From IMG/VR virus record IMGVR_UViG_3300030333_005945, positions 1 to 37,644 of that record: DNA of 37,644 nt; one strand, given 5' to 3'. Each line of letters opens with the position of its first letter. The first letter of the stretch is position 1. A program made the translations under genes and the position numbers. The notes under the pieces are model-generated. The model saw nothing but the letters and a program-made list of their open reading frames with translations. It searched no databases and was not told the origin of the DNA. This document shows positions 12,885 to 37,644 of this stretch, piece after piece. This stretch comes from a virus.

Positions 12885-12885
12885 T

Positions 12886-16628: not shown

Positions 16629-16630
16629 TC

Positions 16631-19117: not shown

Positions 19118-19130
19118 ATAGGAGTTTAAA

Positions 19131-22100
19131 GTGGCTGAAAAAGACGAAAAACCAAAGGGGATATATTACGGTACTGACACTGAAGTTAGATACATTAGCA
19201 TAGCTAGTGCCGAAGTGTACGATTTGCTGTGCGAAGAGCAAATCGAGGGCTTGGTCCATCAAACTTTCGTACCGCCCACGACGAGGCAAGAGGGAGACGT
19301 GGGTTGGGGCCAAAACGGCATGACAGTCACAGAGTTCATAGGCTCTAACAACTCAAATATAGCGTCAGGCTCAACCAATATAGATCATGGCAAAATGTGT
19401 TCTATATATTGGAACGAGGTTCCAGTGGTGGACAAGACTAGCGGCAAGTTTAACTTTACTGACATTGACGTAGAAACAAACCAAACAATTTTCAACACTC
19501 AAGGCTTTAAGAATAAAAGGATAAAAGCCGTAGGAGAAGTGATTAAGGGGTCAGAAGAAAATCAAACCTCTCATCATAGATTTTATAAAATATATAATAA
19601 AGAATGCTCTAAAATTAGACTGGGTATTAAGATAGGCAGCTTGGGCAAGATAGACAGATTTAAAGGTACTCCCCAAAACCCAAATGAATCCTATGGTCAA
19701 TTACTCGATAGTGACGTCACGATAGATTTCATGTTCAGGCCCATATACACCTCTAAAGAGGTAAGCTTTTCTCTAGGCAAAAGAGAGATTTTTAAGGGCA
19801 ACTTGGCCACGCCCTACATAAGAGACGTGAATCTTGTAATGCCGCTTTCTTCAGCTAGAACAGAAGCGGATACAAACGACAACTACGGAGATTTCTTAGG
19901 CTGGGAAATCCAAATCATAAGGCAGACTGAGCAGCCAAAAACCCAAGATGTTAAAAACACAACTATCTTGGATACGATTCAAGAAGAGATTCAAGACACC
20001 TTTACAGCGCCGAACAGTTATATAGTTAAAAGCAAATTCGACGCGCAATTTTTTGGTCAAATCCCAGAGAGAGCGTTCGATGTCAAACTGCTAAAAGTCA
20101 AAGTGCCCAGCAATTATGACCCCATAAACAGGTATTACGATGGCACTTGGGACGGTACGTTTAAAACAGACAAAGTTTGGACCGATAACCCAGCGTGGTG
20201 CTTCTACGACCTAATGGTAAACAAGCGTTACGGCTTGGGTAAATACATAGATCAAATCAAAATAGATAAATGGACCCTTTATCAAATAGCTCAATACTGC
20301 GACACGTTAGTGACTTCAGCGGACGGCGGACTCGAGCCTAGGTTCACCTGTAACGTTTTGATTCAAACTAGAGAAGACGCCTTTAAGGTTCTTACTGATA
20401 TGGCGAGCATCTTTAGGGCTATGATATATTATAGCACCGGAACCGTTTATGCAGTTCAAGACTCAAAGAAAGATTCGGTATTTCAATTTACAAATAGCGA
20501 CGTAGAAAACGGAGACTTTACCTACAGCAGCACTAGCGCAAAAGTTAGGCATACTGTAGCCATAGTCAGGTACAATGACAAAGATAATTTTTATAAACCC
20601 GCCGTAGAATACGTAGATGACATCGAAGGCATTAGAAGGTACGGGATCAAAGAGAAAGAGATTACCGCGTTCGGCTGCACCAGTAGGGGCCAAGCCATTA
20701 GAATGGGCAAATGGATACTCTCCACTGAAAGGCTAGAAACAGAAACGGTATCGTTCGCCACAGGCTCTCAAGGGGCTATGCTAAGACCGGGCGATGTATT
20801 CACTGTTTCTGACTCTAATAGATTAATGAAGCGACGCGGAGGTAGAGTTTTAGACTTCACTCGCATAAATAATTCTAAATTTACTATCCTCTTAGACAGT
20901 AAGCTAGAACCCTTAGACTCTGCTGGAGACGGAGAAGATGGAAACAATAAAGGTAGAAATTACGAACTTACTCTTTCAGCCCCATCATTCTTTTATGACC
21001 CAGCTCAGACAGATATAGAAGACTCGTCACAGGCTCAATTCATTCGCAATCATCACGTACAAAAATTTACAATAACGAATGAAGATGTCGATTATGATAG
21101 CGGCACGACAGGCAAATCGTTAGTCACCATAGAGTGTAAAGACGAAAACGGAAATGACGTCAATTGTCTTAACTCTGCTGGTACACAAATTAATCTAGGT
21201 GACGTTATAGATAAAATGTCTTGGAGCATTTTGACCAACAGTGTTGATGCTGATGTAAACATCGATATTCAAGAGCAAATAAATCAGTCAAAAAGATTTA
21301 GGGTTATTAATGTAGTTGAAAAAGAAATAAGTAAATATGAAATTTCAGCAGCGGAATACAGTGAGGATAAGTATGACGAGATAGACAAAAGGCTAACTTA
21401 CTCTAATACCCTATCTTTCCAAAAACCAAAAGACCCAGCGTCCTTTAACTTCGCGGATAGGAGCAGAGAGATTACAGCCAACACAAAGGCTATAGATTAT
21501 ACTATATCTGGACACGCAACAGATAGAAACGGGCTGTCGCACTACGTTGTGTACGTATCAACAAGCGCGTTTGGGGCGGGAGTACCTAGCGACGATTTTT
21601 TGGTTGATAAAATCTACTCTATAAATAGCCCTTCAGGAACTTACATACCCTCTTCTCAAAGCAATTATTATTTCAGAGCCTACGCCGTTAATTCTTTAGG
21701 GGAATATTCAGACAATCCAGTGGATAATTCTGTAACCTCCGCGCAATTAGGCGCAGTGAATCCAATAAAAGACGTATCGATCACCGCTCTAAGGCTAAAC
21801 GACGACACAGAAGAGTTGGGCAACGATCCTGGTGCAAGTGATCCTGTAGCTGGCACAATTAAAAACGGCCATAAAGTAGACGAGTTCGACGGAACAAACA
21901 TACGAATAAATTGGAGAACTGATATCCCAGGCGTACTGGGAACAAACACCTCCTTCGAATTCTCTTATAGAATTAGAATTTACAAAGGGTATCCCGAAAC
22001 AGGAACCTTACTTTTTACAAATAATGATTTTAGGCCAGTTGACTGGGACTTGGGATTCACTTCTTTCGAGCTTCCTGAAAGCGAGCTAATAAACCTAACA

Positions 22101-23594
22101 AAGCAAGAAAATAATGGCTCAATAGATTTAGATGATGTTTATAGAAGTCTAAGCTTTGTAGTAGACGCAAGAGATTATTCTAGTACGCCTAAATACTCTT
22201 CTGAAAATAATAACAACGACGGGTTCGATGTGTTGTACGTCGAAAATCCAGCCCCAAGGAAGGCGGATCAGAACAAAGCTATAGAAGGGTTTATTGACAT
22301 TAATGGCCACATCAAAATATTTAATACTGACAGACCTACTGATGCACGATCTGTTTATATTATAGCTGCGGTTCAGTCATTTACTTATAACGATTATGTA
22401 AACGCCACAGAAAGCAGCAGCCCCAAAAGGTCCACGTACAAGTTCAACACGCTGAGAGTAAATCCCATAGATAGTACCGATCCAGTTTTCGAAATAGACC
22501 CGAGCTTTAAAACTGACGACATGGATAAAGCTTACGTTGCCATAGCTTATACAGATGATTTTGACGAAAATTTAATAACTTACAAAACGCTAAACGGAAT
22601 CACTTGGGATATAGACAAGAAGTTTTCCGACAGAATCTCTGACGTGTTGGAGGTCAAAAAGGTAACGCCAGAAGTTATAGATTTAATTGGTGAAGGTTGG
22701 AAGGCTTGGATAAAAGTTGACATCAACGGAGAGTGGCAAGGTACAAATATAGAATGTATTAAAGACGTCACTGATGAATACCAAGACTATAAAGGTTATG
22801 TTCCATTTTATTGTGGTAGAAAAATACCTTGGATTCAATATAGAATGCTATATGATCAAGGAATAAATTATAATGACTTACAAGTTAGAGTTAATCCCAG
22901 CCCAGGTTTAATGGTGGGAAGCCAAGTGGAAGACTTATTTACAGCTAGCTGCCTTTATTATTTACCCGAGGGAGACACGAGCGCGAGGCCTCATGGAGAT
23001 TATACTGATAATACTTTTCTTATAGGAGGTTATACAAATCAAACTTGGCACACAACCGACGCCGATAGCCCGTATTACAAGAGAACAGATACGGGAGGAG
23101 GCAACGTCGAGTATTATAGATTTACCAAAGGATTCAAAAGGTACAGAGTATACTTTAAGCCGAACAAGGGTTTTGACCCAGATCATTATTGGGTAGTAGG
23201 CATGAACGCTAATGAGAAAGCTTATTTCTACAACAGCATGCTAGCGGGCCTTGGTAGATTTGCCGCAGCAGCAAGCAACGAAACAGTTAATGGTTACGAG
23301 GGTCAGCTAGTAGGTGGGGCGACAGACGCTCTAACCGCCACGGGTGGTACTGAGATACCTTGGGACGATGGGCAAGGAACTTTGGATCACGTACATATTG
23401 GTGGTAGTGACGCTTACTTTAATTATCACCCAGCAGGATTCGTTCAAGGATTCGGAGGGCTTCCGAAAGAGAGCTCCCATTTCGATATTCACTTGGGCCA
23501 CATGGTAGACGGATCATACCTAAAGGACGCCATATTCTTTGTTATGGCAACCAACCAAAACGAAAAAGAACCAGACGTAAATTGCCCTAACTAA
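19131..23594 (+). CDS. J-like: Tail tip / host specificity protein, lambda gpJ-like
   Basis: The protein has 1487 residues, against 1132 for lambda gpJ. It starts at a GTG with a strong ribosome-binding site AGGAG (19120-19124) 6 bases upstream. The N-terminal two thirds follows the gpJ/tail-tip hub plan, including RYGLGKYID, a segment IFRAMIYYSTGTVYAVQD, and RLETETVSFATGSQGAMLRPGD. Fibronectin type III-like domains follow at about residues 763-876 and 876-1036, and probably 1037-1180. The last 120 residues are His- and Gly-rich (DHVHIGG ... HFDIHLGH) and unlike lambda, so this end is the likely receptor-contacting part. gpJ forms the hub and central fibre that determine host range. Confidence 0.9.
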   Translation: MAEKDEKPKGIYYGTDTEVRYISIASAEVYDLLCEEQIEGLVHQTFVPPTTRQEGDVGWGQNGMTVTEFIGSNNSNIASGSTNIDHGKMCSIYWNEVPVVDKTSGKFNFTDIDVETNQTIFNTQGFKNKRIKAVGEVIKGSEENQTSHHRFYKIYNKECSKIRLGIKIGSLGKIDRFKGTPQNPNESYGQLLDSDVTIDFMFRPIYTSKEVSFSLGKREIFKGNLATPYIRDVNLVMPLSSARTEADTNDNYGDFLGWEIQIIRQTEQPKTQDVKNTTILDTIQEEIQDTFTAPNSYIVKSKFDAQFFGQIPERAFDVKLLKVKVPSNYDPINRYYDGTWDGTFKTDKVWTDNPAWCFYDLMVNKRYGLGKYIDQIKIDKWTLYQIAQYCDTLVTSADGGLEPRFTCNVLIQTREDAFKVLTDMASIFRAMIYYSTGTVYAVQDSKKDSVFQFTNSDVENGDFTYSSTSAKVRHTVAIVRYNDKDNFYKPAVEYVDDIEGIRRYGIKEKEITAFGCTSRGQAIRMGKWILSTERLETETVSFATGSQGAMLRPGDVFTVSDSNRLMKRRGGRVLDFTRINNSKFTILLDSKLEPLDSAGDGEDGNNKGRNYELTLSAPSFFYDPAQTDIEDSSQAQFIRNHHVQKFTITNEDVDYDSGTTGKSLVTIECKDENGNDVNCLNSAGTQINLGDVIDKMSWSILTNSVDADVNIDIQEQINQSKRFRVINVVEKEISKYEISAAEYSEDKYDEIDKRLTYSNTLSFQKPKDPASFNFADRSREITANTKAIDYTISGHATDRNGLSHYVVYVSTSAFGAGVPSDDFLVDKIYSINSPSGTYIPSSQSNYYFRAYAVNSLGEYSDNPVDNSVTSAQLGAVNPIKDVSITALRLNDDTEELGNDPGASDPVAGTIKNGHKVDEFDGTNIRINWRTDIPGVLGTNTSFEFSYRIRIYKGYPETGTLLFTNNDFRPVDWDLGFTSFELPESELINLTKQENNGSIDLDDVYRSLSFVVDARDYSSTPKYSSENNNNDGFDVLYVENPAPRKADQNKAIEGFIDINGHIKIFNTDRPTDARSVYIIAAVQSFTYNDYVNATESSSPKRSTYKFNTLRVNPIDSTDPVFEIDPSFKTDDMDKAYVAIAYTDDFDENLITYKTLNGITWDIDKKFSDRISDVLEVKKVTPEVIDLIGEGWKAWIKVDINGEWQGTNIECIKDVTDEYQDYKGYVPFYCGRKIPWIQYRMLYDQGINYNDLQVRVNPSPGLMVGSQVEDLFTASCLYYLPEGDTSARPHGDYTDNTFLIGGYTNQTWHTTDADSPYYKRTDTGGGNVEYYRFTKGFKRYRVYFKPNKGFDPDHYWVVGMNANEKAYFYNSMLAGLGRFAAAASNETVNGYEGQLVGGATDALTATGGTEIPWDDGQGTLDHVHIGGSDAYFNYHPAGFVQGFGGLPKESSHFDIHLGHMVDGSYLKDAIFFVMATNQNEKEPDVNCPN

Positions 23595-23595
23595 A

Positions 23596-24348
23596 ATGAA
23601 AAACAACAATTTAATTATTTACTATAAAGATAAATCTAGAGACGTTTTTTCTTTTGCCTCAGACGTTTCTGAGGAACAGGCCATATCTAAATTCGAGGCT
23701 ATTCGCCCAGAGGTAGACAAAGAGCAAATAGAAAAATACTTTTATCACACAAACGATGAGCTGCCAATCGAAATGTACGGCAAGTTCACATCGCTAACCG
23801 AAGAGGGTAAAATAGAAATTAACACGCGTGCAGTGATGATTGAGGAGAGACTTGACGACATAAGAAAAAAACGCGACCTGCTCATATCAAAGTTGGACAT
23901 CCCTTTCATGAGAGCTTTGGAAGACGATAACGACACGGTTAAAAATCACATTAAAAAAATTAAAAACTTCCTCAGAGATTTACCAAGCAAGCTAAGGTTT
24001 CATGAATTAAATGACGAAGATATATTGTCTTATAATCCATTTGGTAACATACTTGAGATAGCAATAATAACTGGTGGTAGCGGCTATCAATCTCCACCCA
24101 AAGTAACCATAGATGAGCCTAAAAGGCCCGCTGTTGGATTTGCTCCGAAAGTGGTGGCTACAATAAAAGACGGCGCGGTTTCTAAGTTGATTTTAACCGA
24201 CTTTGGTTGCGGTTATAATTTTGTCCCTAAGGTTGAGATAGAAGCTCCTGAAAACGGAGAAAGAGCCTTGGCCCTTTGCTTGCCTCCCCAAAATACAGTG
24301 TTAACTGAAGAGCAAATATTCGAAAACACTCGCTCTAACTATCAGTAG
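23596..24348 (+). CDS. Tail-associated protein with chaperone-like helix region and paired GGxGY repeats
   Basis: The protein is 250 residues. Residues 83-130 (a KKRDLLISKLD segment, then IKNFLRDLP) resemble the R-x-x-RD-x-L-L...YR-x-x-LRD-x-P pattern of small phage tail accessory or chaperone proteins. Residues 152-218 hold two copies of a beta motif: IAIITGGSGYQSPPKVTI and, from residue 197, KLILTDFGCGYNFVPKVEI. This GGxGY-x-x-x-P-x-V-x-I type repeat occurs in phage structural proteins and suggests an elongated beta fold. It starts one base after the gpJ homologue, so it is likely made together with it. Whether it is a virion subunit or an assembly factor is open. Confidence 0.6.
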   Translation: MKNNNLIIYYKDKSRDVFSFASDVSEEQAISKFEAIRPEVDKEQIEKYFYHTNDELPIEMYGKFTSLTEEGKIEINTRAVMIEERLDDIRKKRDLLISKLDIPFMRALEDDNDTVKNHIKKIKNFLRDLPSKLRFHELNDEDILSYNPFGNILEIAIITGGSGYQSPPKVTIDEPKRPAVGFAPKVVATIKDGAVSKLILTDFGCGYNFVPKVEIEAPENGERALALCLPPQNTVLTEEQIFENTRSNYQ

Positions 24349-27300
24349 AGCATTCCACCCGGTTTCTTTTCTTGCACCAAGGTCGATAGCACGGTGCTCT
24401 TGATTCTGTCCGCAAGCTCCTTGGTTTCCGTCTCACTGAGAGGCGTGCTGCCGTAGCCTTGGCTTTCAGTAATTTCATTGGAAACTCCTCCAGCAGCATC
24501 AACGTTAACTGTGATGTTGATATTGTTGGTTTGATCCCCTGAGCCGCCAGCATCAAGTTTAGTTGCTTGATTACCGCTGGAGGTTACGGGTTTCATCCTG
24601 TGTGGCTTAGTGACTAATCCACCTGTTGCGTAGGCAGCTATGTTGCCACTATTAAGTCTATCAAAGAACGCGGTTCCATATTTGTCAACGATGTCTTTTC
24701 TTACGACATATTCTCCACCCATTAGCAGGGCTGGTATATCATCTCCAGATTGTCCGCCCTTAGCAAACATCTTGTACCCACCTTTACCCCCAGTGAGTGC
24801 GCTCGACATCAACAATGAAGCTCCACCAAACAAGAATCCGTATCTACGGCCCTGCTTCTCGCGCTCGTGTTTCTCCATAGCTTCTTGCTGGTCTTTAAGG
24901 AACTGCATTCTCTCGTGTTGGTAACCGAAGAACGCATCCATCTTTTCGAACTTGAATCTATTCTGCGGATTGTTCTCGTCCGTAAGAGCGTTGGCGGATA
25001 GCCTTGAGTCTCGGAGATGGATCGCGTTTTCTGGGCGCTTAAGATTATCAAATATAAATCTATTTTTAAGGTGAGCTTTGTATTTACCCGAGCCTATTTC
25101 AACGCTGCTCTCATCAAACATTTCTCTATCCATATTTTTGCCTACGTCTGGATACTTTTTGAGAACTTCTTTTATAGCTGCAAGTCTTTCTGAATTAATT
25201 GGTCGTTTTAAGTCTACTTTGTAGTCAGACTTAGTATGGATTACGGGCTCGCTTGTTTCCCTGCCCAACCAATCTTCTTTCTTTTTCTCTGGGTCTGCTT
25301 CTCTATATGAGAACTGCGAAATTCCAGCAGCGCTAAGCTCTCTTTGTCTTCGGGCTTCAGCGCGTCTCATCATTGCTATTTGAACCGCGTGTTTTGGGTC
25401 TTTAGATATCATGCCACCTGTAGCCGCTTGTGTAATTCTGCCCGAATTTAAAGAGTCGAAGAAGTCTTTACCCAGCGCATCAACCGAAGACCTTTTGATT
25501 ACATACTCTCCCTTACTCAAGTAAGCGGGTACGTCATCCTTGGTTCCTGAGCCGCCGCGGACCATGCCTCCTGTAGAGTAACCTTTTACTGGGCCTCCCT
25601 TGGAGAATGGCATAACAGCGTCAAATATAGAGTTAACACCCATTTGCAGAGTCCTATCAAGCATCTTATCAGCCATCTTGGCCAGCATGTCACCAAAAGC
25701 GTCCTTGAGCTTGGCTGTGCCCCTGATGGCCTCGCCAAACGCGCTGGCCACTCCAGTACGGAAGTCCTGAGAAAACTCCTTAGCCATTGAATTCAGGTCA
25801 CTATAGAAGTCTCTGGAGCTGTATAAGAAGCCGCCCAGTAGGGAGTCGGTAAAGTTCTGAACGCCGTAGTTTCCAGCGTCTAAAGCGGCCTCGTTAGCGT
25901 CATCGATAGCCTTTCTCATTGTGTCGCTGGCCATCGTTCCTTTTTTGTAAATTTTTTCTGTTTGCTCTAATTCGACTCTGTATTTTTGCGCTCTAAGGTT
26001 GGCGACTTTTTGCATTTCGTCAAGCTTTGATTGCTCCGTACCCGGATCAGCGCCAGAAAGCTCTATGAATCTTTTCTTTAACTTATCCAAGATGGCCGTA
26101 CCTTCTGAGGCGGCTATAGCGTTTCTTCTCACAGCAGCAGCGTAATACTCAACTTCGTTTGAGGCGGCTTTAGAGTTGTCTCTTATGTTTTGTAATAGTT
26201 TTTTCTCGACGAAAATATCTGCTGCGTTTTTGCCTGGCGTATTGGCCGCTTCTGCTTCTATCTCCGGAGCGAATTGCCCCATTTTAGCTGCTGCATTAAG
26301 CTTCTCAAACGCTGAGTTTACCAAGCTCAAGGCTCCTGGCATTTCTTCTAAAATTTTCTGAGAGGCTTCCAGTTCGTCGGTCCAAGACTTCAAAGCGTTC
26401 GATTGACCCTCTCTTATTAAATCTATTACAGACTTGCCATAAGTTGCTTCTTCCGCGTCTGCCGCGTTATCAAGCCTTGCGTTATCTTTCTTGGCTTGCT
26501 CAAGGGCTTTTTTAGCTGCGTCAACCCTACCCTTTCTTCCTTTTTTCTTGCTGGCTTCAGCCTTTGCGACATCTTCCTCTAGTTTCTTTAATCTTTCCGC
26601 TCTCGCTTTCGCTTCTGCAAAATTGGCCGCTCTAACTTCTGCTAGCTTTGCTTGTCTTGCGCTGTCGTCGCTCAAGAACCTTCTCATTTCTGGATTCTCT
26701 ACCACGCCTTTCATGTAGGCTTCCAAGCCCGATTTCATTGTGTCTCCAGACACAGCTCCAACCATAGACTCATGAAGCAGCGACGCAAATGTAATTCCAG
26801 TGTTGGTAGCGGCTACCGAAAGATGCTTTCTTATCGCGTCATGGTCTACAAACTTACCAACGTCCTGCGCGGCTTTCTTTAAATTTTGGAAGCTGGAGTT
26901 AACTTTCTCAATGCTGCCAACACCTTTTCCATACAGATCGAGCTGGTGTTCGTAAGCGTCGGTTGATCTCTGATAAGCGTTTTCCAAGCTGAGCCTGATG
27001 GCTTCCTCCTCGGTCATTACGTCGAACAGCTTGCGGATCGCGTTGATGACATCCTCGTACTGCTCAGGTTTTAGCGCGGGATCATTGAGGATGCTCATGA
27101 GGTTGTCTTGATTTGAGGCCACCCACTTCTTAAGTTCTGCGGAAGTAAGGTTTTGGCCATCTTTAAGAAGTCCTAATTTTTCTAATCTCTCGCCTTGCGC
27201 CCACTTCTCTTCCACTGAGCCGTCAGAAGCTTCTAGAGTACCCATCATTGTGTTGTACCAGTTTGTCGTCGCTCTTTGGCCTCCAGCGCTTTGTAAATTT

Positions 27301-30300
27301 GTTCTTCTTCTGTTTCTGATCTCAGTAAGAATCGAAGCGTCTCTTGCGCTAGCTTTAGCTTTACCCGGTGTTTCTCCAATCGCGCCGAAGAGCGCGGCGT
27401 CGATGCCTGACTTGCCAAGGGCGTCGGCAGTCTTGCCTCCTGTGACTCGGCTCTTATGAGCTTCAGCCAAGGCTTTGATTATATTGTCTTGGGCTATGTC
27501 TCTTTGTAGATCACCGAAGGCGTCCACGAGCCTACGAATCTTGGACGTATCTTGATTAGCTTCGCCAAGAGATTTGTTGATGTCTATGTTTTTGAGAGAT
27601 AGGTCTCTTAATAGTTTTAAACGTTCTTTTTCTAAAGTCTTTTGGTCGTCTAATAAGGATAGCGCCTCGCCTTCAACGGTTAAAGCTTCTTTGGTTGCAT
27701 TCAATTGCTTTCTTTTAGCCGTTTCTTGAGCGTATCTTTGCCTAGCAATCTGCTCATCCATATATTCGAAATCATTATCATAAACCCACTGTTCAAATGA
27801 CTTTGCCAAATGTGGTAGGGCATCAATTTCTGCGTTTGTGTCTTCCAATAGCGTTTTGAGTTTTGAGGCCGCTGCTCTAATCTCTTCTAGGCTCAAGTCT
27901 TCCCGCTGCTTGATTGTGTTCATGAACACTTCTGCTCTAGCTATAGCTTGATTAGATTCCGACTGAGGTGAATAGCCTACATCTTTAGGTTTGATGCCGT
28001 CTATACCTTCGGTTGGTTTGAAATCTGGACCGCCCGGTTTTGTTGGGTCTGTGGGGGGAGTTTCGTTTCTGCGTATCAGTATTAACCTTTTTAACTCCTC
28101 ATTTATATACCCAAGTTGTTCCGCGTTTAATTCTAACCCCTTATCTAAGTCGAGATTAGCCTTAGCTTGTTGCACAAGGGTTTTCTGTGCGACTGAAAGA
28201 GAATCGACATTTCCATCCCTTAGAGCTTTTTGTATTGCCGCTAGGTTATCTTTAATAGCGTCCGTTGGAGTCTTAGGTGTTGTTTTATCAGGGTCTTTAG
28301 CTTGTGAGGCTGTTTTCGGTAAAATCTTGAGTTTAAGTTCTTCTAATTTTTTCAGCGCCTCTGTAAGCTCCACAACGCTTTTCGCGGCTGCATCTCCAAC
28401 GACGGATATTTCTTTGTATTCTTCTCTAAGTTGTTTTAATTCTCTTGCGGCTTTGAGTGTTTCGAGTCTTGCTGCCGCTGCCTGCTGATTTAATTTATTA
28501 TCGTCTCCTTTTCCTTCTCTTTGTTTAGCGATCTCATCTTCTCGAGCTCTCGCCGCCGTAAGCCTAGATGTTGCCGCTTCGATTTTTGCTTGCGCCTCTT
28601 TTTGTTGCCCCCCAGCACGGGCTCTATCTCTTACGCCCTCGGCTTCTGCGAGTTTTCTGTTTAATTGATCTTCATAGTTTTGGACTATCTCAGGCACAGG
28701 TATCGCTTCGGTTGCTAGAAATTGCAGACGACTAGGCATAACGCTTCTTGAGCCTTGCACTGGCCTACGCTGCTGTACTTCACTCCAGCCTTCAGGATTC
28801 AATTGATTAAGTCTATTAAGTAAAGTTTGGTCGGCCTGTTTTCTAAGTTCGGCTATTTTTTCAGCCCTAAGTTGCTCTTCGGTAACAGACCTAAAATACT
28901 GCATTCTCATCGGGCCTTGTATTTTACCCTCTGCCATAGCCTGTCTTTGCTTGTCGCTATACGTTTCTAAAGCTTCTTTTTCCGTCTTAAATCTTCCACC
29001 CTCAGCTCCGAGCCACTCCGTCTCCATTCTAATCTTGCTATCGTCAAGGCTTTTTTTCCACTCTTCTAGGGCGTCTGCTGCATCGCTTGCTTTATCCTTT
29101 AATTTAGTAAGGCGGTCTATTGTGGCTTTATTTGTGTTTTGTCTTTCCGCTTCTACTTTATTGAATTCGGTTTCAGCATACTTTCTAACGTCTCTAATAT
29201 TAGCCTCTGAAAAGAAGTCAGCCATGCCAAATGTGTCAGATAATTTAGACATCTTCCCAATGACGTTATTAATGGCTACCTCCATTTTCACTGCGTCACC
29301 TTGGGATAAACCTTCAGTCATAACCTTTCTCATCTCTTTACCCAAGACTTCCAGCCCGTAATCAATTTCACCCCCCGTTACGTTGTTTCTCATGAACTGT
29401 TCTAGAGTATCCATGATACCCAACTGCCCTCTTTCATAGGGCTGAAATTTACGCGCTTCAGGGTCCCAAAAAGCCTTTGCTCCTTTGTCGGCTAGTTGTC
29501 CAAAAGTTTCTCCAGGTTTTGAATACCTAAATCGTCTATCTCGAGCGGCTAAAGCCATTGATTCTTCGCCGCCGCCCGCGGTTCCGCCTTCAGCTCTTTC
29601 TCTAGGGTCTCTTCCCCAAACGACGTCTATCGACCTCCTTTGCCATCTTGTGCTTTCAAACTCATTACTAGCCTTTTGAGCTGCGGCTAAATCTTTTTCT
29701 TGCTGCCAACCAAAAGCTTCAGCTTCTTTAATTTTTTGAGCACCAAGATTTATGTCTCTTTGCGCCGCCGTTGCCTCGTTAAGTTCTTCTATTGGGTCTC
29801 TAAAATTAATTAGTGCTTCGGCTACATTCGTACCGATTTGCCCCATAGAATTAGTCAACGCTGTTTGCAGACTGGTAAGCCCCACTCCCATAGCTAAACC
29901 GTTTGCCTTAGCAAATTCGGCTGGTATGTTTGCGGCAAGAGTTTGGAATTCGGCAGAAGCTCCTAGTAAATTTTCGAAACCAAGCTCATTGGTCATTCTA
30001 ACTTTACCCACGCTTTGTCCAACTTGATAACCAGATTTTAATACATTTTCTCTAAGAGCTTGCCTGACTTTGTCCGTAGCTTTAGCTGTAACTTGGGTTC
30101 CAAGTGCCGCAGCCCTCATGTTAGTTGGGATTCCGTTTAACTTCAAGGCGTCATCAAAAGCTCCTTCGTTTGCGCCCACCAATGTATTTGTTTGAAGAGC
30201 AACCAAACGATTTAAGATTTCGCTGTTCTTTCTGATTTCAGCGATGTCGTCAGGCATCTGGTTAAGCTTGAGTTGAGCGGCGATCTGCTCGGTGGCGACC

Positions 30301-33300
30301 TTCTCTGCGTCCACATCAGGAAGCTGCATGTCTGGCGCAACTATACCCGAAACTCTTCTGGCGAATCCGACTTGTCTATTTATGTCTTCAGTTCTACCTG
30401 CGATAGCACTGCTCAAAAGCGGGGCGATGCCCGGACCAATGTCCCGCAACTGATCAAAGTTCATTTTATTAATGAGTTGATCCAAAAGCTGCGCGTTGGC
30501 TCTGCCTACGTCAACGATAGATGTTGATACAGCGCCCTTGATTTGAGCTCCCAAAACGTTTGCCATACCTTCGAATGACTTGGATAATCCAGCCATGCCA
30601 GCGCTTCCGAATATCTCTCCTTGGCCACCAAATGAAGCGATTCTCTCTTGTAGCTGCGCACTCCGTTCAGCCCAATAAGCCTGACGTTCAGCTATTTCTA
30701 ACTGTTGGTTTCTTTGCTGGACGGCAAGAGCCAGCTCGTTTACGGTGGTCGTTCCGCTTTGTTTAATCTCTTCAAGTAAAAGCTTGGCGGCGTTTTCCGC
30801 GTTGTTTTCGGCTATGCGATTATTTTTTAAGATTTGAGCGGTTTTTGCAGTAACCGCTTTCATGGCGTTAATGTCTTTTGGCGCAGTAGCCCAAACTTTA
30901 AACGCTTCCTCAATTACAGGAATCATAGCTTCTTGAGCTTTTCTGTTTCTTGCTAATTCACCGAGCTGTTCTTTACCTGATTTTGTAGCCAAGCCAGCGG
31001 TTTGCTTTATGACTTTTTGATTTAAGTCTGTGAACTTTTTAACGAATACTTCCAAGTTTCTTTTGGTGCCGTCCGAAACGGCTTTTCTAAATTGGACTAA
31101 AGAAGCAGTTTTAATTTCAAAAGATTTGTCTATAAGCTCGGCTCTTACTTTCATCTCTTTAGACATGAATGGGTCTTCGAGTTGTCGTGCGCCTTTTAAA
31201 TCTTCTTGAGCTAAGTCTATTGTAAATTCTTTTACTTTGTCTGTAAGCTGAGCAATGGTAACCAGTCTATCTTGAATACCTTTTACGCTCTTGCCAACAA
31301 TAGTATTAAAGTCTTCTATTGCTCTGTTTAAAGCTTTCTGTTGTTTGATTTGAATTTGGTCTAGTGCGTTTTTCTTTTGTAAATCTCTAGTAGCTTGAGC
31401 GGCTATTTTAGCTCCGGATTTCATTCTATCGAAAACGTCTTGCATGAGTTTTCCGATGTGCTGAATGTCGCTATCGTCTACTTTGCCTTGCAAATTTTCA
31501 AGCATTGCGCCGAAGCCCTCTCCGGTGAATTTTTGCATGTTTGCCATGTTGGAGAAGTCAACGTCCATGCCAGAGTCTATGGCTTTTTCTAAATCTTCTT
31601 TGTTCAACGCCATTCCTATGGCTTGTTTCATTTGTGCTTGGACGCGCTTACCTTCGGCGGATAGTACGCCTCCCCCTAACGTGTCAAACATTTTAGTATC
31701 CGCGCTCCAAAAGCTCATTCCTCTCGCGCCCGAGCCGAACTCTTTTTGTAATTCGTAGCCCATTTTTGCAGCGTCTAAATCGTTTTTGCTTTTCTGTAAG
31801 TCTTGAGTTATTTCTCCGAAAATTTCTTTTATCTTTTCTGCGTCGCCAGCGGCGGCTTTAAATCTCGCTTGGAATTCTTGAGGTACTTCCGCTAGCGCTT
31901 CGGTCATCTTGCTGCGAACTTTGGCGAGATCATCTGCGGTGACATTGCCAGACTGATCTTTCATCATTTTGTCTAGCTTGTCTAGGCTGTCCATGTAGGC
32001 TTGTCCGCCAGAAGTAACACTATTGAGCTTGGTGCCCATTGCTTCCGCCTCTTTACCAACCGCCTCCAGCTTCTCAGCGATTTCGGCCTTTTTAATATTG
32101 TCGCCAGCCATCATTACTCCAGCGCCGAGGCCAAGCACCGCCCCCGCAGCCATACCCCAACCTCCAAAAGCTTGTCCCATTTGCACGCCTGTACCTACCA
32201 TGCCCACGGCGTTACCGACGCCTTCAGCCGTAGCTTTTCCTGAAAGGTTATCTTTGCCCATGAATTGAGAAGCTACGCCGCCGATCATGGGTCCACTGGT
32301 CATCATGGCCATTGCTCCTCCGCCTTCTACAAAGCCGCCTAGTCTACTTTTAAGCGATTTGCCTCCCTCTAGTCGTTTTGTTTCCTGTCTAGCTTCTCCG
32401 TGTGATTGCGCGGTTGCTTTAGCTTGGTCTCTAGAGGGTTGCGTTTGTTCTTTTCTTCTTTCGTTGGCTTCTGCTTTTGCGTTTGCTTCTGAGGCTTCAG
32501 CGTCTCTCAATTCGGCTTTTACGCCTCTTTCTATTGCTTTTTTCTCTTTCTTCTTTTTGTCTAAAATATCTTGTTCTTCCCGAATGGCTTGTTTAGCTAC
32601 TTCAACTTCTTCATCGGCCAAGCGGGCGGCTTCTTTTGCTTGTTCCGACTGCCTCTTGAGAGCTTCTAATTCTTCAGCTATCTGTTTTTTTCTCTCGTCC
32701 CTACCCTCTCTACCAACTCCAGTCTCCGCTGAGTAGTCTACCTCTTCACCAGTAGAGAAGTTCCTGATAGGTTTTGCTCTAGAACCCCTTAACGCCTCGT
32801 CCTCCATTTCAAGCTCCCCAATTCTCATGTCCGTTTCATTCGCTGTTTTTCGCGCGCCTTCAGCTGTATTTTTTGCTCGGTCCCTGAGATCAACAGCTGC
32901 ATTTACTTGTCCCTGTTGCTCGGCAATTTTAGCGTCAATCGGTTCCATTTCTGCCGCGCCAGTTTCAAGTATATTGCGTTCTGCCGTCTCTCTGTCTTGG
33001 GCGGCTTTTTGAATTGTTTCATTGTATGAGGAATCAGCATCCAGTCGAGCTTGCTTCGCTTCCTCAATAGCGCTAATCATCTCATCACGAGCTTGTTTCT
33101 CCCTGTCTTTAGCGGCGTTTATTTGTTCTTCGGTGCCTTCGGTGCTTTGAAGTAACGCTTTACCTGCTTGGCCAATGTCTTTTAAACTAAATGCCATCAT
33201 GGACAATGAGCCCATCAACATGGCGGTGTCTAAACTGTCGCTTGCGAAGTTTGGAACCAAACCTTGGCTGGCTCCTTGAGATTGAATTCCAGTTATAGTA

Positions 33301-36300
33301 TTACCAGAAGCTAAATGCATATTAATAGCATTGCTAAGAGAACCTTCAGTGGTGTTGTAAACTCCTATGCCGCCACTGGATTTTAATCTGCTATCATAAC
33401 CAACCCTAGGTTGTCCTTGGCCAGCAGCTTTTTCACGGCCTATCGCCGCCTTGAGAGCGTCTTCTGCAAAGTTGGGCACAAGGCCGCGAGCAAATGTTCC
33501 AAAAGAACGAAGCGTAGACGAATCCATTTTTCCCCTCATCTGCATGAATCGATCCATTTTGGCTTGGTCTAAAACCGTGGTAAACGCTTTCGCGCCGAGG
33601 GTATTTATTACCATCTTTTCAAGGCCAACAGTATAAGCTTTGATGGTCTCTTTATCTGAAGCGTATTTACCGAACTCTCCAGTCTTGTTGAGCATACCCA
33701 TGTCTACCTGTGATAACCCACTAAACTCATTACCCGCAAGAGGTTTAAAGTCTACAGACTCCAATTCGTTAAGAGTTGGATTGCTGCGAGCAACCATTTC
33801 GTGACTCAACCCAGTACCGTGAATAGAATCAACTTGGGTAGTTCCATCTATACCTTTATTAGCCAGCCCTTTGTTTTTAACAAACTCTTCCGTTGAAGTA
33901 ATTAAAATTCTGTTTGCATCTGGATACGCATTTTTAAATACGCCTTCTAAGGAATTATACCAGCTAGATTGAGTTGAATTTTTTGGAAATACTCCGCCCC
34001 AAAAACCGTATTGACTCGCAAGAAAGCCCGCGCTCGTATGTATTTCGCTTTTAACTTCGTCTTTAGTAACGTTTCTTTGTTCTCGTAGCGCTTCTGTCGT
34101 GTTGTCCATGACCTTACTCTTTTTAGAGTCTGAGAAAGTATCTTGAAACTGTCTGCCAGTCATATTCTTTTTGATGGCCATTTTTCTTCTGGCGACATTT
34201 CTTCTAGCGTCCTCTTCATTAAAGACCGCGTTAAAGGTGGGTCTTTCATCGCTTTCGATCCCATATTTGGCTTTTAGCCTATCTCTTGCGCCTTGATCTT
34301 GAGTATTAAAAGATACGGAGCCTGGGGGTGGAATCCTGACTGCTCCAGTTCCATACGTAGCCAAATACTCTGGCACGCCCATAGCCCTTAAGGCTTTACC
34401 TTGTGAAGCGGCTACCCTTGCTGAATTGATTTCGGCTTCCAAAGCGTTGCTAGTGGCTGATTCGGCGTCCCCAAAATCCATCCCCATTCCCTCATCCCAA
34501 GTAGCTTTTCCTCGGTTTCGAAGAAGCTCTGCGCGCTCTTTATCTTCAAGGCTTTGGCCAAATTGCTGATAAGCGTCAGCTTCCGCAAAGTAAAAGTTTG
34601 GAACAAAACCGCCGAACCCTTTGAATCCGCCAGCTTTAAATTTAGAATGGCTTACGCGCTTCTTCTTGTAAATTCCAGGAGACCCTTTGGCTGGAGAGCT
34701 TTTGCCATCTCTAAACTTACCGTGACTTCCTTTGGTTTGTGATTTCCAAGTTCTAGCAAAATTAGGAATAAGCCCCATAGATTGCATACCCATCGGGCCG
34801 AAAGTTTTAGCCCAGTCTTTCTTAACCGCTGGGTTTTGGTTAAGCACTGCCATAGCCTGTTGGAATCTGTCTGGCGTGGTGACGCTAGACAAACCATGAG
34901 TCTTAATATTATGAGAAAGTATATCTACTAAATACTTACTAAAGCTAGAAGCAATGTCTACAACTTTTGTTTTATCTCTTTTACTTCTTTCGTGCAGAGC
35001 TAGTTTAGCTTGTATGTTCTTTTGGGTCTTGAGGTTCGCGGCGATCTTTTCTCCCACTACAAAATCAGAGCCTTTCTTGGCTCCCGGTTTTGCTTGACCT
35101 AAGGACGCTGCCATTTCGTTTTCGAACTTAATTCCTGCCATTGCGCCCGTTGTACCTTCTGGGTCCCAATTAGCTCCAGCAACTCCACCCACCAAATCGT
35201 AGGCCAGACCATCGAACAAATGAGGCACCTCATTTAGCATGGTTCTCCAAGCTGGGCCAGCCTTTTTAATCTTTCTTGCTGTAAGGCCAGTAGCGATCAT
35301 GCGTCCTGATCTACCAGCCATATCCGTAGCAACAACTAGCGTTTCGCCTTCTGGGCCACGAATCATTCTCATGCCAGCGGTCATTTTTTGTACCTGCTCA
35401 TCCGAGAGGTTGGTTCCCATAGCCCCTTTTCTACCAATCATTGTTGTGCCAAAGTCTTTTTCATGTAGACCCTTGTAAGCAAAGCTGGGAACGAAACCTT
35501 CTGAAGCGAAATTAAGATTTAATCCAAGTCTATCCCAAGCCTTGCCCCCATAACCACTCATTCTAGCCTTGAGAGCTCTGCGCTTATTTTTAAACATCTC
35601 TCTAGCTTCGGTGATCTCACCGAGCTCACCAACCTTCTTGTTGCCGTATTTAGCTTTAAACGCTGCAAAGTCTTCATCCAGAATTGACATGCCTTTGGCC
35701 GCTTTGTCTTTTCTGTCTTGTATGTATGCTGCTCGTTTTTGTAGAACTGGTATATTGTTTTTAATTACTCTAAAAACTTCTGGCGGAAGATTGTTTTTTA
35801 AAGTATTAAGGTCTCCATCAACAACGGCTTTTCTAATTTTGGTTCCGCTTACTCCGCCCAGCCTACCCTGCACAGCAGTAACACCCTTAAATGCCCCAAA
35901 GCTTTTGGTCATGTCTTCTGCTCCGCCTGATACTCTATCCGCGCCTAGAGCGACTTTTGTATCAGCCTTTCTCATTCTGTAGGCTTTGCCTCCGTGCTCA
36001 AAGTGCTCTTGAATTCCTGCGGTACCAGGAACGGCCATCATGTTTGGATTAGCGAGTTCTATTAGTTTCGCTTTTTCTCTGGTTGACAAACCTATATCGT
36101 AATCTCTGCTAGCGCCTTTACTTACGAACGCAACGCTTGCTCCAGCCTGTCTAGCCATGTCTGAGTGACCACTAGTAAAGGGCGCGAATGCTCCTATTGT
36201 GGCTGTGGCCCCTTTGATTTCATTTATCTTTTCAAATTCAGAAGCCTGTTTCAGACTCATGTCGGCCTGTCGCTCGAATACGCTTAACTTATTCGAATAC

Positions 36301-37644
36301 TTTTCCGCCAATAAAGCCTCAGTCAAAATACCAGAGGTGGAACCAAACTTTTGGTTTGCATCTCTACCAAAACCTGTTTGGGAAGTTCCTGAACGAATTT
36401 GTTTGGAGCGTTTATCGCGCATGCCCATTACGACGTCTTTAGCTCCTTTTAAGAAAGTGATTTTTCCTGCCTTAGTAAACTCTGGGCTATCGACAACGCT
36501 TTGAGCAGCTCTAACCACAACCAATTGATCCGATGGATTTAGGTCTGCTGCACTGGTAACAAAATTAGCCCCACCAGCCCTCTTTATAGCTTCTGTGGTT
36601 TTTCCTATTCCAGCGGTGCCTACGATAGTCTCACTGATTTGACCTCGTTGAGCGGCTTGGCTAACTATAGAATCGAATATTTTTTTAGCGTCTCTACTAG
36701 CAACAGGTACGCCCATCGCTTGAGCTAACTGATCTTTATCTAAAATCTTGGTGGCGAAATTTGGAATTATACCACTGAAAGCAAGAGCCTCTTCCAGCTT
36801 TGCTTTGTTAATATCATCATGCATCCAATCCAAAGTAAACTGCTTTTTGTCGTGCATGATTTGATTGGCGGTTGTTCTTTGCAGCAGCTCGTTTTTAAAG
36901 TCTGCCCAGTGGCCCCTAGCAACGCCCCAAAGCGTGGATGAGCCCTGAACTTTTCCATCCGCTCCTTGCCCTAAAACGTCAGTATACATCCTGCCATCGC
37001 CCGATTGCTTTGCAACATCCATTGTATCGAGGGCCGGTTTGTTGGGGTCCCATTTTCCACCAGTAGTAGGATAAAAAGCCTCAGCCATTGTTTGTGCATA
37101 GCTGCTAGAACCCCCAGATTTTATAGCGTTGTATCTCAAAAATTTAGAAATCCATAGGCTCTCGGAATGTCCCGCGCCAACGTGAGCGTCACCTATGTCA
37201 GTTTTAGAATTCATTGAAATAGCTTGTTTAAGCTTTTGCGAACGGGCGTCGTTAGGTATGGTGGAAGGGCCAACAAAATCAAAAGGAATGTTTCTAGCGC
37301 CCTTGGTGCCAACACCTATTTGAAAATACGTCATCAAGTCGTCCTCAAAGGTGTTTCCTTCTTTAACGTTTTTTAGTCTGTTATTTTCTTGGTGATCTTT
37401 AAGTAGGGCAGCGAACGTTCTAGCTTTCGAGTGCGACTTCGGGAAAATTTTTGGATCAAAATTTAGAGCTCCTGTTCCTCCTGCGTAACCCTTAACCCAG
37501 TTTGTTGGGGCACCTTGAGCTACGGGAAGTTTTTGAGCCTTTCTCCAAGAGGTTATGCTAGTCCCATCTTGCTTCAAGAAGCTAATGGACTGCTGTAAAT
37601 ATTCTGCTACCGCTGAATCCTTTGCACTTTGGGATAAATTTTTC
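24342..37644 (-). CDS. Giant tape measure protein with N-terminal enzymatic cargo region (N-terminus cut by window edge)
   Basis: The frame is open from the right edge to the TGA at 24342-24344, more than 4,430 codons. A TTG at 37577 (numbered 1 here) is the first possible start in the window, but the frame continues upstream, so the true start is outside. Residues 1-1445 are globular segments separated by six G-[FLI]-[VI]-P-[NS]-F-[AY] motifs, with a P-loop (320-328) and a nucleotidyltransferase-like domain (about 450-615). Residues 1485-1735 are predicted coiled coil, and 1749-1823 are Gly/Met-rich hydrophobic segments typical of tape measure proteins. A very long Ala/Lys/Glu helical region follows. 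The C-terminus has duplicated GG...DDVPA-x-L-x-x-GEYV motifs and ends EKKPGGMLY. The C-terminal part sets tail length and is ejected at infection. Confidence 0.85.
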   Translation of the reverse strand, partial: KNLSQSAKDSAVAEYLQQSISFLKQDGTSITSWRKAQKLPVAQGAPTNWVKGYAGGTGALNFDPKIFPKSHSKARTFAALLKDHQENNRLKNVKEGNTFEDDLMTYFQIGVGTKGARNIPFDFVGPSTIPNDARSQKLKQAISMNSKTDIGDAHVGAGHSESLWISKFLRYNAIKSGGSSSYAQTMAEAFYPTTGGKWDPNKPALDTMDVAKQSGDGRMYTDVLGQGADGKVQGSSTLWGVARGHWADFKNELLQRTTANQIMHDKKQFTLDWMHDDINKAKLEEALAFSGIIPNFATKILDKDQLAQAMGVPVASRDAKKIFDSIVSQAAQRGQISETIVGTAGIGKTTEAIKRAGGANFVTSAADLNPSDQLVVVRAAQSVVDSPEFTKAGKITFLKGAKDVVMGMRDKRSKQIRSGTSQTGFGRDANQKFGSTSGILTEALLAEKYSNKLSVFERQADMSLKQASEFEKINEIKGATATIGAFAPFTSGHSDMARQAGASVAFVSKGASRDYDIGLSTREKAKLIELANPNMMAVPGTAGIQEHFEHGGKAYRMRKADTKVALGADRVSGGAEDMTKSFGAFKGVTAVQGRLGGVSGTKIRKAVVDGDLNTLKNNLPPEVFRVIKNNIPVLQKRAAYIQDRKDKAAKGMSILDEDFAAFKAKYGNKKVGELGEITEAREMFKNKRRALKARMSGYGGKAWDRLGLNLNFASEGFVPSFAYKGLHEKDFGTTMIGRKGAMGTNLSDEQVQKMTAGMRMIRGPEGETLVVATDMAGRSGRMIATGLTARKIKKAGPAWRTMLNEVPHLFDGLAYDLVGGVAGANWDPEGTTGAMAGIKFENEMAASLGQAKPGAKKGSDFVVGEKIAANLKTQKNIQAKLALHERSKRDKTKVVDIASSFSKYLVDILSHNIKTHGLSSVTTPDRFQQAMAVLNQNPAVKKDWAKTFGPMGMQSMGLIPNFARTWKSQTKGSHGKFRDGKSSPAKGSPGIYKKKRVSHSKFKAGGFKGFGGFVPNFYFAEADAYQQFGQSLEDKERAELLRNRGKATWDEGMGMDFGDAESATSNALEAEINSARVAASQGKALRAMGVPEYLATYGTGAVRIPPPGSVSFNTQDQGARDRLKAKYGIESDERPTFNAVFNEEDARRNVARRKMAIKKNMTGRQFQDTFSDSKKSKVMDNTTEALREQRNVTKDEVKSEIHTSAGFLASQYGFWGGVFPKNSTQSSWYNSLEGVFKNAYPDANRILITSTEEFVKNKGLANKGIDGTTQVDSIHGTGLSHEMVARSNPTLNELESVDFKPLAGNEFSGLSQVDMGMLNKTGEFGKYASDKETIKAYTVGLEKMVINTLGAKAFTTVLDQAKMDRFMQMRGKMDSSTLRSFGTFARGLVPNFAEDALKAAIGREKAAGQGQPRVGYDSRLKSSGGIGVYNTTEGSLSNAINMHLASGNTITGIQSQGASQGLVPNFASDSLDTAMLMGSLSMMAFSLKDIGQAGKALLQSTEGTEEQINAAKDREKQARDEMISAIEEAKQARLDADSSYNETIQKAAQDRETAERNILETGAAEMEPIDAKIAEQQGQVNAAVDLRDRAKNTAEGARKTANETDMRIGELEMEDEALRGSRAKPIRNFSTGEEVDYSAETGVGREGRDERKKQIAEELEALKRQSEQAKEAARLADEEVEVAKQAIREEQDILDKKKKEKKAIERGVKAELRDAEASEANAKAEANERRKEQTQPSRDQAKATAQSHGEARQETKRLEGGKSLKSRLGGFVEGGGAMAMMTSGPMIGGVASQFMGKDNLSGKATAEGVGNAVGMVGTGVQMGQAFGGWGMAAGAVLGLGAGVMMAGDNIKKAEIAEKLEAVGKEAEAMGTKLNSVTSGGQAYMDSLDKLDKMMKDQSGNVTADDLAKVRSKMTEALAEVPQEFQARFKAAAGDAEKIKEIFGEITQDLQKSKNDLDAAKMGYELQKEFGSGARGMSFWSADTKMFDTLGGGVLSAEGKRVQAQMKQAIGMALNKEDLEKAIDSGMDVDFSNMANMQKFTGEGFGAMLENLQGKVDDSDIQHIGKLMQDVFDRMKSGAKIAAQATRDLQKKNALDQIQIKQQKALNRAIEDFNTIVGKSVKGIQDRLVTIAQLTDKVKEFTIDLAQEDLKGARQLEDPFMSKEMKVRAELIDKSFEIKTASLVQFRKAVSDGTKRNLEVFVKKFTDLNQKVIKQTAGLATKSGKEQLGELARNRKAQEAMIPVIEEAFKVWATAPKDINAMKAVTAKTAQILKNNRIAENNAENAAKLLLEEIKQSGTTTVNELALAVQQRNQQLEIAERQAYWAERSAQLQERIASFGGQGEIFGSAGMAGLSKSFEGMANVLGAQIKGAVSTSIVDVGRANAQLLDQLINKMNFDQLRDIGPGIAPLLSSAIAGRTEDINRQVGFARRVSGIVAPDMQLPDVDAEKVATEQIAAQLKLNQMPDDIAEIRKNSEILNRLVALQTNTLVGANEGAFDDALKLNGIPTNMRAAALGTQVTAKATDKVRQALRENVLKSGYQVGQSVGKVRMTNELGFENLLGASAEFQTLAANIPAEFAKANGLAMGVGLTSLQTALTNSMGQIGTNVAEALINFRDPIEELNEATAAQRDINLGAQKIKEAEAFGWQQEKDLAAAQKASNEFESTRWQRRSIDVVWGRDPRERAEGGTAGGGEESMALAARDRRFRYSKPGETFGQLADKGAKAFWDPEARKFQPYERGQLGIMDTLEQFMRNNVTGGEIDYGLEVLGKEMRKVMTEGLSQGDAVKMEVAINNVIGKMSKLSDTFGMADFFSEANIRDVRKYAETEFNKVEAERQNTNKATIDRLTKLKDKASDAADALEEWKKSLDDSKIRMETEWLGAEGGRFKTEKEALETYSDKQRQAMAEGKIQGPMRMQYFRSVTEEQLRAEKIAELRKQADQTLLNRLNQLNPEGWSEVQQRRPVQGSRSVMPSRLQFLATEAIPVPEIVQNYEDQLNRKLAEAEGVRDRARAGGQQKEAQAKIEAATSRLTAARAREDEIAKQREGKGDDNKLNQQAAAARLETLKAARELKQLREEYKEISVVGDAAAKSVVELTEALKKLEELKLKILPKTASQAKDPDKTTPKTPTDAIKDNLAAIQKALRDGNVDSLSVAQKTLVQQAKANLDLDKGLELNAEQLGYINEELKRLILIRRNETPPTDPTKPGGPDFKPTEGIDGIKPKDVGYSPQSESNQAIARAEVFMNTIKQREDLSLEEIRAAASKLKTLLEDTNAEIDALPHLAKSFEQWVYDNDFEYMDEQIARQRYAQETAKRKQLNATKEALTVEGEALSLLDDQKTLEKERLKLLRDLSLKNIDINKSLGEANQDTSKIRRLVDAFGDLQRDIAQDNIIKALAEAHKSRVTGGKTADALGKSGIDAALFGAIGETPGKAKASARDASILTEIRNRRRTNLQSAGGQRATTNWYNTMMGTLEASDGSVEEKWAQGERLEKLGLLKDGQNLTSAELKKWVASNQDNLMSILNDPALKPEQYEDVINAIRKLFDVMTEEEAIRLSLENAYQRSTDAYEHQLDLYGKGVGSIEKVNSSFQNLKKAAQDVGKFVDHDAIRKHLSVAATNTGITFASLLHESMVGAVSGDTMKSGLEAYMKGVVENPEMRRFLSDDSARQAKLAEVRAANFAEAKARAERLKKLEEDVAKAEASKKKGRKGRVDAAKKALEQAKKDNARLDNAADAEEATYGKSVIDLIREGQSNALKSWTDELEASQKILEEMPGALSLVNSAFEKLNAAAKMGQFAPEIEAEAANTPGKNAADIFVEKKLLQNIRDNSKAASNEVEYYAAAVRRNAIAASEGTAILDKLKKRFIELSGADPGTEQSKLDEMQKVANLRAQKYRVELEQTEKIYKKGTMASDTMRKAIDDANEAALDAGNYGVQNFTDSLLGGFLYSSRDFYSDLNSMAKEFSQDFRTGVASAFGEAIRGTAKLKDAFGDMLAKMADKMLDRTLQMGVNSIFDAVMPFSKGGPVKGYSTGGMVRGGSGTKDDVPAYLSKGEYVIKRSSVDALGKDFFDSLNSGRITQAATGGMISKDPKHAVQIAMMRRAEARRQRELSAAGISQFSYREADPEKKKEDWLGRETSEPVIHTKSDYKVDLKRPINSERLAAIKEVLKKYPDVGKNMDREMFDESSVEIGSGKYKAHLKNRFIFDNLKRPENAIHLRDSRLSANALTDENNPQNRFKFEKMDAFFGYQHERMQFLKDQQEAMEKHEREKQGRRYGFLFGGASLLMSSALTGGKGGYKMFAKGGQSGDDIPALLMGGEYVVRKDIVDKYGTAFFDRLNSGNIAAYATGGLVTKPHRMKPVTSSGNQATKLDAGGSGDQTNNINITVNVDAAGGVSNEITESQGYGSTPLSETETKELADRIKSTVLSTLVQEKKPGGMLY
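24618..25571 (-). repeat. Duplicated tape-measure C-terminal motif
   Basis: Two divergent copies of a roughly 50-residue motif are encoded at 25413-25571 (GSGTKDDVPAYLSKGEYVI ... DFFDSLNSG ... ATGG) and 24618-24761 (SGDDIPALLMGGEYVV ... AFFDRLNSG ... ATGG). The motif is usual near the C-terminus of tape measure proteins, where the protein contacts the tail tip. They are separated by about 220 residues of charged sequence. Confidence 0.75.
32109..32333 (-). other. Hydrophobic Gly/Ala/Met-rich segments of the tape measure
   Basis: Residues about 1749-1772 and 1788-1823 (for example AFGGWGMAAGAVLGLGAG) are hydrophobic and glycine-rich. Such stretches are common in tape measure proteins and are thought to insert in the host inner membrane during DNA ejection. 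They lie just after the coiled-coil region (about 32373-33125) and mark the change from cargo to tape measure. Confidence 0.6.
35733..36230 (-). other. NMN-adenylyltransferase-like nucleotidyltransferase domain
   Basis: Residues about 450-615 have three landmarks of the HxGH nucleotidyltransferase superfamily in the correct order and spacing. These are GAFAPFTSGH (T468-x-G470-H471, the (H/T)xGH motif), LGADRV (544-549), and VSGTKIRKA (576-584), the I-S-x-T-x-I-R motif. They are followed by VVDGDLNTLKNNLP, as in phage NMNAT-like enzymes. Members transfer AMP or CMP to phosphorylated substrates; a role in NAD metabolism is possible but not shown. Confidence 0.7.
36594..36620 (-). other. Walker A (P-loop) motif in the giant protein
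   Basis: Residues 320-328 read GTAGIGKTT, a full G-x4-GK-T/S nucleotide-binding loop. The surrounding segment (about 276-450) has alternating strands and helices (NFVTSAADL, QLVVVRAAQ, GKITFLKGA) compatible with a small kinase-like P-loop fold. A Walker B acidic residue is not certain. It lies between the first VPNFA-type motif and the nucleotidyltransferase-like domain. Confidence 0.55.

Follow-up and report, generated by a model that had tools for sequence, protein, structure and literature searches.

The analysis indicates that the giant protein encoded in the final third of the window (the whole stretch of DNA analysed, a linear IMG/VR virus contig of 37,644 nucleotides) is a phage tape measure protein (TMP) with an internal cassette of enzyme-like modules, which are bounded by short PNFA-type motifs such as GFIPNFA. 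We consider it probable, at roughly 60%, that this is an exchangeable, motif-bounded enzyme cassette which is housed inside the TMP of a long-tailed phage and reaches the host cytoplasm on infection.

The TMP gene (24342–37643, minus strand) is a single open reading frame (ORF) of 4433 aa, whose 5′ end is missing and which is open at the right end of the contig. Residue 1 aligns to residue 673 of the TMP of a relative, L003. The contig is thus without approximately 672 N-terminal residues, and the full-length protein is predicted to have about 5105 aa. A search of the window returned no match to PF10145 (PhageMin_Tail) because the contig stops before this N-terminal domain, which is found at the TMP N-terminus of the relatives L001 (E = 1.3e-26) and L003 (E = 6.7e-26). 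The L001 TMP is complete, with an intact ORF of 5136 aa. As PF10145 precedes the cargo in these complete relatives, the cargo is an internal insertion before the TMP body, and not "fused ahead" of the TMP as a preliminary description of this DNA had put it. Other parts of that description were borne out. Multi-enzyme cargo and TMP do share one polypeptide, the boundary between them falls at 33243, where the last VPNFA-type motif ends (residue 1467), and tape-measure hallmarks follow the cargo. These hallmarks are a charged coiled-coil-like stretch (approximately residues 1500–1770, by inspection) and then a Gly-rich hydrophobic segment (best 19-mer at residue 1829), together at 32094–33146, and a body matching the PHROG tail-length tape measure family over residues 3497–4082 (25398–27155, E = 3.3e-6), all on the minus strand. 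Lambda-like tail-tip genes encoding a minor tail protein, a JAB+NlpC/P60 protein, and a Phage-tail_3 host-specificity protein provide the context on the plus strand (16113–23594). Being the largest tail gene product, with a long helical or coiled body and adjoining tail-tip genes, the window protein is by membership a phage TMP of the PhageMin_Tail/TP901 type.

The cassette region corresponds to the first 1467 residues of the window ORF and consists of globular segments and six VPNFA-type motifs, starting at residues 291, 716, 957, 1012, 1387, and 1461 (all features below are on the minus strand). The first segment, module 0 (residues 1–289; 36777–37643), has a nuclease-like signature, GNTFE / PFDF / GDAH..GH. 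It is followed by motif 1, GIIPNFA (residues 291–297; 36753–36773), at the start of module 1 (residues 291–715). The preliminary description had also noticed a P-loop and a nucleotidyltransferase-like domain among the globular segments, and both are present in module 1. The P-loop, GTAGIGKT (residues 342–349; 36597–36620), lies in its N-terminal half, and a HIGH-type nucleotidyltransferase at approximately residues 477–640 (35724–36215) matches PF16581 above the Pfam cut-off (E = 7.8e-8). The nucleotidyltransferase motifs are PFTSGH at residue 488 and SGTKIR near residue 598; PFTSGH and VSGTKIRK are kept in L001, and the domain has a weak profile match (E = 0.004) to the solved HIGH nucleotidyltransferase 3gmi. 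Distant TMPs contain P-loop modules related to this one (hhalign E = 8e-9 for L085 and 1.4e-5 for L044), with the PNFA motif itself making up part of these alignments. Motif 2, GFVPSFA (residues 716–722; 35478–35498), opens module 2 (residues 716–956; 34776–35498), which bears a second nuclease-like signature, GIKFE / SDF / QAK, and is shared with four relatives at 51–85% identity. Motif 3, GLIPNFA (residues 957–963; 34755–34775), comes next, and a basic linker of 54 aa separates module 2 from module 4. After motif 4, GFVPNFY (residues 1012–1018; 34590–34610), the globular module 4 (approximately residues 1019–1386; 33486–34589) is about 52% identical to its L001 counterpart and had no match in Pfam, PHROGs, NCBIfam, or PADLOC; the latter two gave no useful matches overall. 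The cassette ends with motif 5, GLVPNFA (residues 1387–1393; 33465–33485), a closing domain of about 70 aa that is conserved in nearly all relatives (..AIGREKAAG..GVYNTTEGSL..; 33264–33464), and motif 6, again GLVPNFA (residues 1461–1467; 33243–33263). An AF2 model of residues 286–1391, built from a four-row alignment, reached a pLDDT of only 35.

Scans of IMG/VR with the TMP N-terminal domain returned 41, and then at least 573, relatives, and six MAG contigs, mostly of Flavobacteriales, were also found with this domain. Nearly all fetched members share one order: PF10145, a motif at about residue 540, a domain of about 82 aa, a motif at about residue 620, the cargo, a motif, a domain of about 73 aa, a motif, and the TMP body. 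The 85 complete TMPs have a median length of 2238 aa and usually four motifs, so that the window TMP and that of L001 represent the large, multi-module extreme of the family. The two small domains flanking the cassette were considered as mutual duplicates, which was not supported (hhalign E = 0.4). L105, a contig of a Flavobacteriaceae MAG, encodes a 1449-aa TMP that has a nuclease-like cassette and is without a recognisable PNFA motif.

This spread bears on whether the ORF is an assembly chimera in which separate genes were misjoined. The window ORF runs off the contig, and the near-identical L001 and L002 differ by an ORF break, as a chimera would allow. Nevertheless, the same order occurs in dozens of independent metagenomes and the ORF of L001 is intact, and we regard misjoining as extremely improbable. 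The domain order that the preliminary description proposed to look for in metagenomic phages is thus present in many independent contigs, which contradicts the assembly error it had raised as a caveat; its other caveat, cargo encoded by a separate gene in homologues, found no support either, as no stand-alone copy was detected. L001 and L002 come from different metagenomes, and the break of the L002 TMP ORF near 15202 is probably a frameshift or an assembly error.

The motif G-[FY]-[IV]-P-N-F-[AS] was nearly invariant across 407 instances (P 100%, N 97%, G 96%), although a less strict version of this very pattern had been used to select the instances, so that the percentages arise partly by construction. 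At approximately 105 loci, the pattern G[FYLHI][VIL]PN[FYL] occurred 397 times in 243 kaa of TMP, whereas the other ORFs at these loci (431 kaa) had four instances, none of them with PNF, and its presence in TMPs is not due to chance. When viral contigs were scanned, independently of TMP relatedness, for DNA encoding GFIPNFA, at least 114 ORFs with the motif were obtained among the matches listed, and nearly all of these appear to belong to TMPs. The TMP N-terminal domain was carried by 73 of these; another 37 run off the fetched stretch, most of them looking like parts of the same protein, and the remaining 4 are short and resemble chance matches. The L008 cassette was modelled with AF2 from 45 sequences (pLDDT 76), and its motifs fall in linkers of pLDDT <50 between confident domains. 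An intein reading was set aside by inspection, the repeated PNFA boundaries being unlike splice junctions.

Low-confidence linkers between folded domains are also what would be seen under the main rival explanation, according to which the TMP is a polyprotein: the PNFA linkers would be cut by a protease during assembly, and the modules would end up as separate proteins of the virion or the cell rather than leaving with the TMP. HExxH metallopeptidase modules do occur in some of the same TMPs (L039, L045, L084, and L085), and zincins are thought to process polyvalent proteins (PMC5512222). However, no protease module was found in the window fragment, and the motif likewise delimits the pair of small conserved domains that nearly every member has. 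Furthermore, we know of no protease with specificity for a PNFA motif, which counts against cleavage. On this evidence, we consider a polyprotein cut at the motifs unlikely.

The commonest cargo among the relatives is a module with invariant G, F, E, K, and K residues and the signature G..FE, D/E, (D/E)xK, whose host cassettes are mostly 25–49% identical. The residues expected of a PD-(D/E)XK nuclease are conserved in nearly every sequence (E in 45/45, D/E in 44/45, D/E in 45/45, and K in 45/45). This cargo matched no Pfam or PHROG family. With an iterated profile it was detected in 88 of 104 TMPs (93 copies in total), and reversed decoys reached E = 0.47 at best. The assignment as nuclease-like with a PD-(D/E)XK signature is made at the level of residues, since the L008 model had no significant match in PDB or BFVD in a fold search. 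Modules 0 and 2 of the window were not significant against this family with the iterated profile (E = 1.6 for the L003 copy of module 0), and a profile comparison of module 2 with the family aligned nothing beyond the PNFA motif. In both modules the E and D are present, and the third element is DxH (module 0) or QxK (module 2) in place of (D/E)xK. The DAHxGxGH form of module 0 is found in L003 as well and likewise replaces (D/E)xK in L126, L151, and L209, that is, in distant TMPs, and this recurrence marks it as a conserved variant rather than decay.

Other cargo identified with Pfam includes GNAT, SNase, and PcfJ-like domains, together with a GHKL ATPase-like domain and a sigma-70 region 4-like helix-turn-helix, both of which scored below the cut-off. 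HAD-like modules with a DxDGT motif were also found in relatives, and some modules bear a possible resemblance, judged by eye only, to ART or protein kinase domains. Several individual TMPs combine such modules. Those at L085:11831-15283 and L113:2588-4240 each contain GNAT, metallopeptidase-like (HExxH or HExxxH), and HAD-like (YDWDGT) modules, and the L085 TMP additionally has nuclease-like modules and a P-loop. The TMP starting at 9842 on the 208.9-kb contig L039 has about 11 PNF-type motifs, three HExxH metallopeptidase modules, and the sigma-70 region 4-like helix-turn-helix, which, if real, would be an injected transcription module.

Comparison of closely related TMPs revealed exchange of cassettes. 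In some pairs the N-terminal flanks are up to 95% and the closing domains up to 99% identical, while the cargo between them has an identity of only 20–31%, approximately the alignment background. The breakpoints are sharp and located at the motifs, as exemplified by the pairs L007/L011 and L062/L072: from about 0.9 as far as motif 2, DNA identity drops within 10 codons to about 0.3, and at motif 3 it is back at about 0.9. The window and L001 show a complementary pattern: module 1 is 77% and module 2 is 85% identical between them, their TMP bodies are only 33% identical, and an unrelated module in L001 takes the place of the first module of the window. Judged by these alignments, it is at GFIPNFA boundaries that the cassette acquires, loses, or exchanges its modules. 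The cargo is maintained as protein, as follows from the dN/dS values relative to L001 of 0.066 for module 1 and 0.057 for module 2 (with dS near saturation) and from the dN/dS of 0.30 for module 0; the values for modules 1 and 2 indicate strong purifying selection.

Exchange at fixed boundaries, together with the dominance of nuclease-like modules, could also point to a mainly selfish or mobile unit, in which these modules drive their own spread into the TMP gene in the manner of homing endonucleases or domain-shuffling hot spots and have no role in the host. We consider this improbable, given that the cargo also includes GNAT, HAD-like, GHKL-like, nucleotidyltransferase, peptidase, and sigma-like modules, that cassettes are almost always present in the fetched relatives rather than sporadic, and that selection on modules 1 and 2 is strong.

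The flanks of the cassette are consistent with delivery into the host. With hydrophobic segments called at a hydropathy of 1.3, one lies between PF10145 and the cassette in 85/85 TMPs, and another lies within 300 aa after the cassette in 78/85; elsewhere, there were 12 in 44 kaa of cassette and 41 in 92 kaa of remaining body. In the subfamily of the window, the segment after the cassette is Gly-rich and weaker, and it calls to mind the glycine zippers described for TMPs and for the effector Tde1 (PMC10240207). When lambda injects its genome, TMPs are located at the inner membrane (PMC13190303), and the TMPs of a gene transfer agent have to exit ahead of the DNA (PMC7296036).

The N-terminal side of a TMP is head-proximal in siphophage tails, and the cassette would be located within or at the portion of the tail nearest the head. 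We propose that on infection the TMP is ejected and opens a path for the DNA through the inner membrane, by which the cassette would enter the host cytoplasm before or together with the DNA, possibly exposed as a loop flanked by two hydrophobic segments that insert into the membrane. The GFIPNFA motifs would sit in flexible linkers. The modules of the window, namely the P-loop/HIGH nucleotidyltransferase, one or two nuclease-like domains, and module 4, may then act before phage gene expression, as is thought for polyvalent injected proteins. A bolder and more tentative version, which we hold to be possible though not favoured, is that GFIPNFA, as a short linear motif, serves as a delivery grammar by which this large lineage of uncultured phages fits enzyme modules of any kind into its TMP and delivers them as a loop between two membrane-inserting segments, which would make ordinary phage tails a natural, modular means of injecting proteins. 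Counting against delivery, folded enzymes must pass through, or be packed in, a narrow tail lumen. The atypical DxH and QxK modules, the absence of a fold match, the pLDDT of 35, and the weak flanks in the window subfamily count against it as well.

Alternatively, the cargo might act in the periplasm or in tail assembly, as cell-wall or envelope enzymes or in length control or neck docking, and not in the cytoplasm. TMPs with peptidoglycan hydrolase domains are well known, and SPbeta-type relatives are annotated as lytic transglycosylases. Nevertheless, the HIGH nucleotidyltransferase, GNAT, sigma region 4, and P-loop modules need cytoplasmic substrates, and no cell-wall hydrolase was found in any cassette scanned. 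We therefore regard this explanation as very improbable.

Delivery into the cytoplasm would place the cassette beside several known systems. For the polyvalent proteins that phages and conjugative elements encode, entry into the host together with the DNA has been predicted (Iyer et al. 2017, PMC5512222), in agreement with the established theme that the preliminary description had invoked. As in those proteins, several unrelated enzyme domains (metallopeptidase, GNAT, and others) occur in one large phage polypeptide, and in the window itself the P-loop and the HIGH nucleotidyltransferase provide two disparate activities, in line with the polyvalent criterion of at least two. The zincin-like metallopeptidase, the commonest polyvalent domain yet present in only about 36% of them and not strictly defining, was absent from the window fragment. 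The present proteins differ from polyvalent proteins in that the carrier is a TMP and the cargo is internal, motif-bounded, and exchangeable; the word "tape" never occurs in PMC5512222. The TMP-related effectors Tme (PMC11126660) and Sle1 (PMC13277306) of contractile injection systems, the latter representing a type of effector with diverse functional domains, likewise join a tape-measure-like carrier to an enzyme or effector domain in a tail-like particle. They belong to bacterial, non-phage particles and have a C-terminal functional domain, whereas here a true phage TMP holds internal multi-module cargo with PNFA motifs. A Tme-type effector of a contractile injection system was rejected for the window protein: no cassette scanned had a Pfam match to DUF4157, and the tail-tip genes of the window are those of a lambda-like siphophage, with no contractile-system genes. 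The type VI secretion effector Tde1 resembles the present proteins in having enzyme cargo joined to a Gly-zipper membrane segment related to TMPs, and differs in being a secretion effector with one toxin domain and no phage particle (PMC10240207). Cultured siphophage TMPs, such as those of the Bacillus phages SPbeta and Staley, share the N-terminal PhageMin_Tail domain, which alone matches SPbeta-type and other TMPs at 25–29% identity; unlike the domain, the cassette was found in none of 50,697 phage records. Searches of the open-licence literature found nothing describing enzyme cassettes in phage TMPs, and nothing joining PNFA-type motifs or a cytidyltransferase with TMPs. To our knowledge, internal, motif-bounded, exchangeable enzyme cassettes in phage TMPs have not been described.

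If delivery holds, TMPs would be not only rulers and DNA pilots, and would also carry a swappable enzyme payload that precedes the first phage gene, which would explain a class of unannotated giant proteins in hundreds of uncultured phages. A nuclease-like family would be gained along with many effector modules, which are probably tools of anti-defence or takeover, and polyvalent proteins would be connected with the TMP-derived effectors found in injection particles. Such TMPs would also offer a natural model on which to base the delivery of proteins with phage tails.

Two further regions of the window deserve mention. The stretch 1138–4322 encodes a DnaQ-like exonuclease and, after it, a short protein of the DNA polymerase III alpha type (854 aa), a replicase not usually seen in phages. 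At 9129–16010, the minus strand encodes structural-looking proteins of 703, 592, 402, 337, and 258 aa opposite the tail-tip genes, a possible set of tail fibre or appendage proteins.
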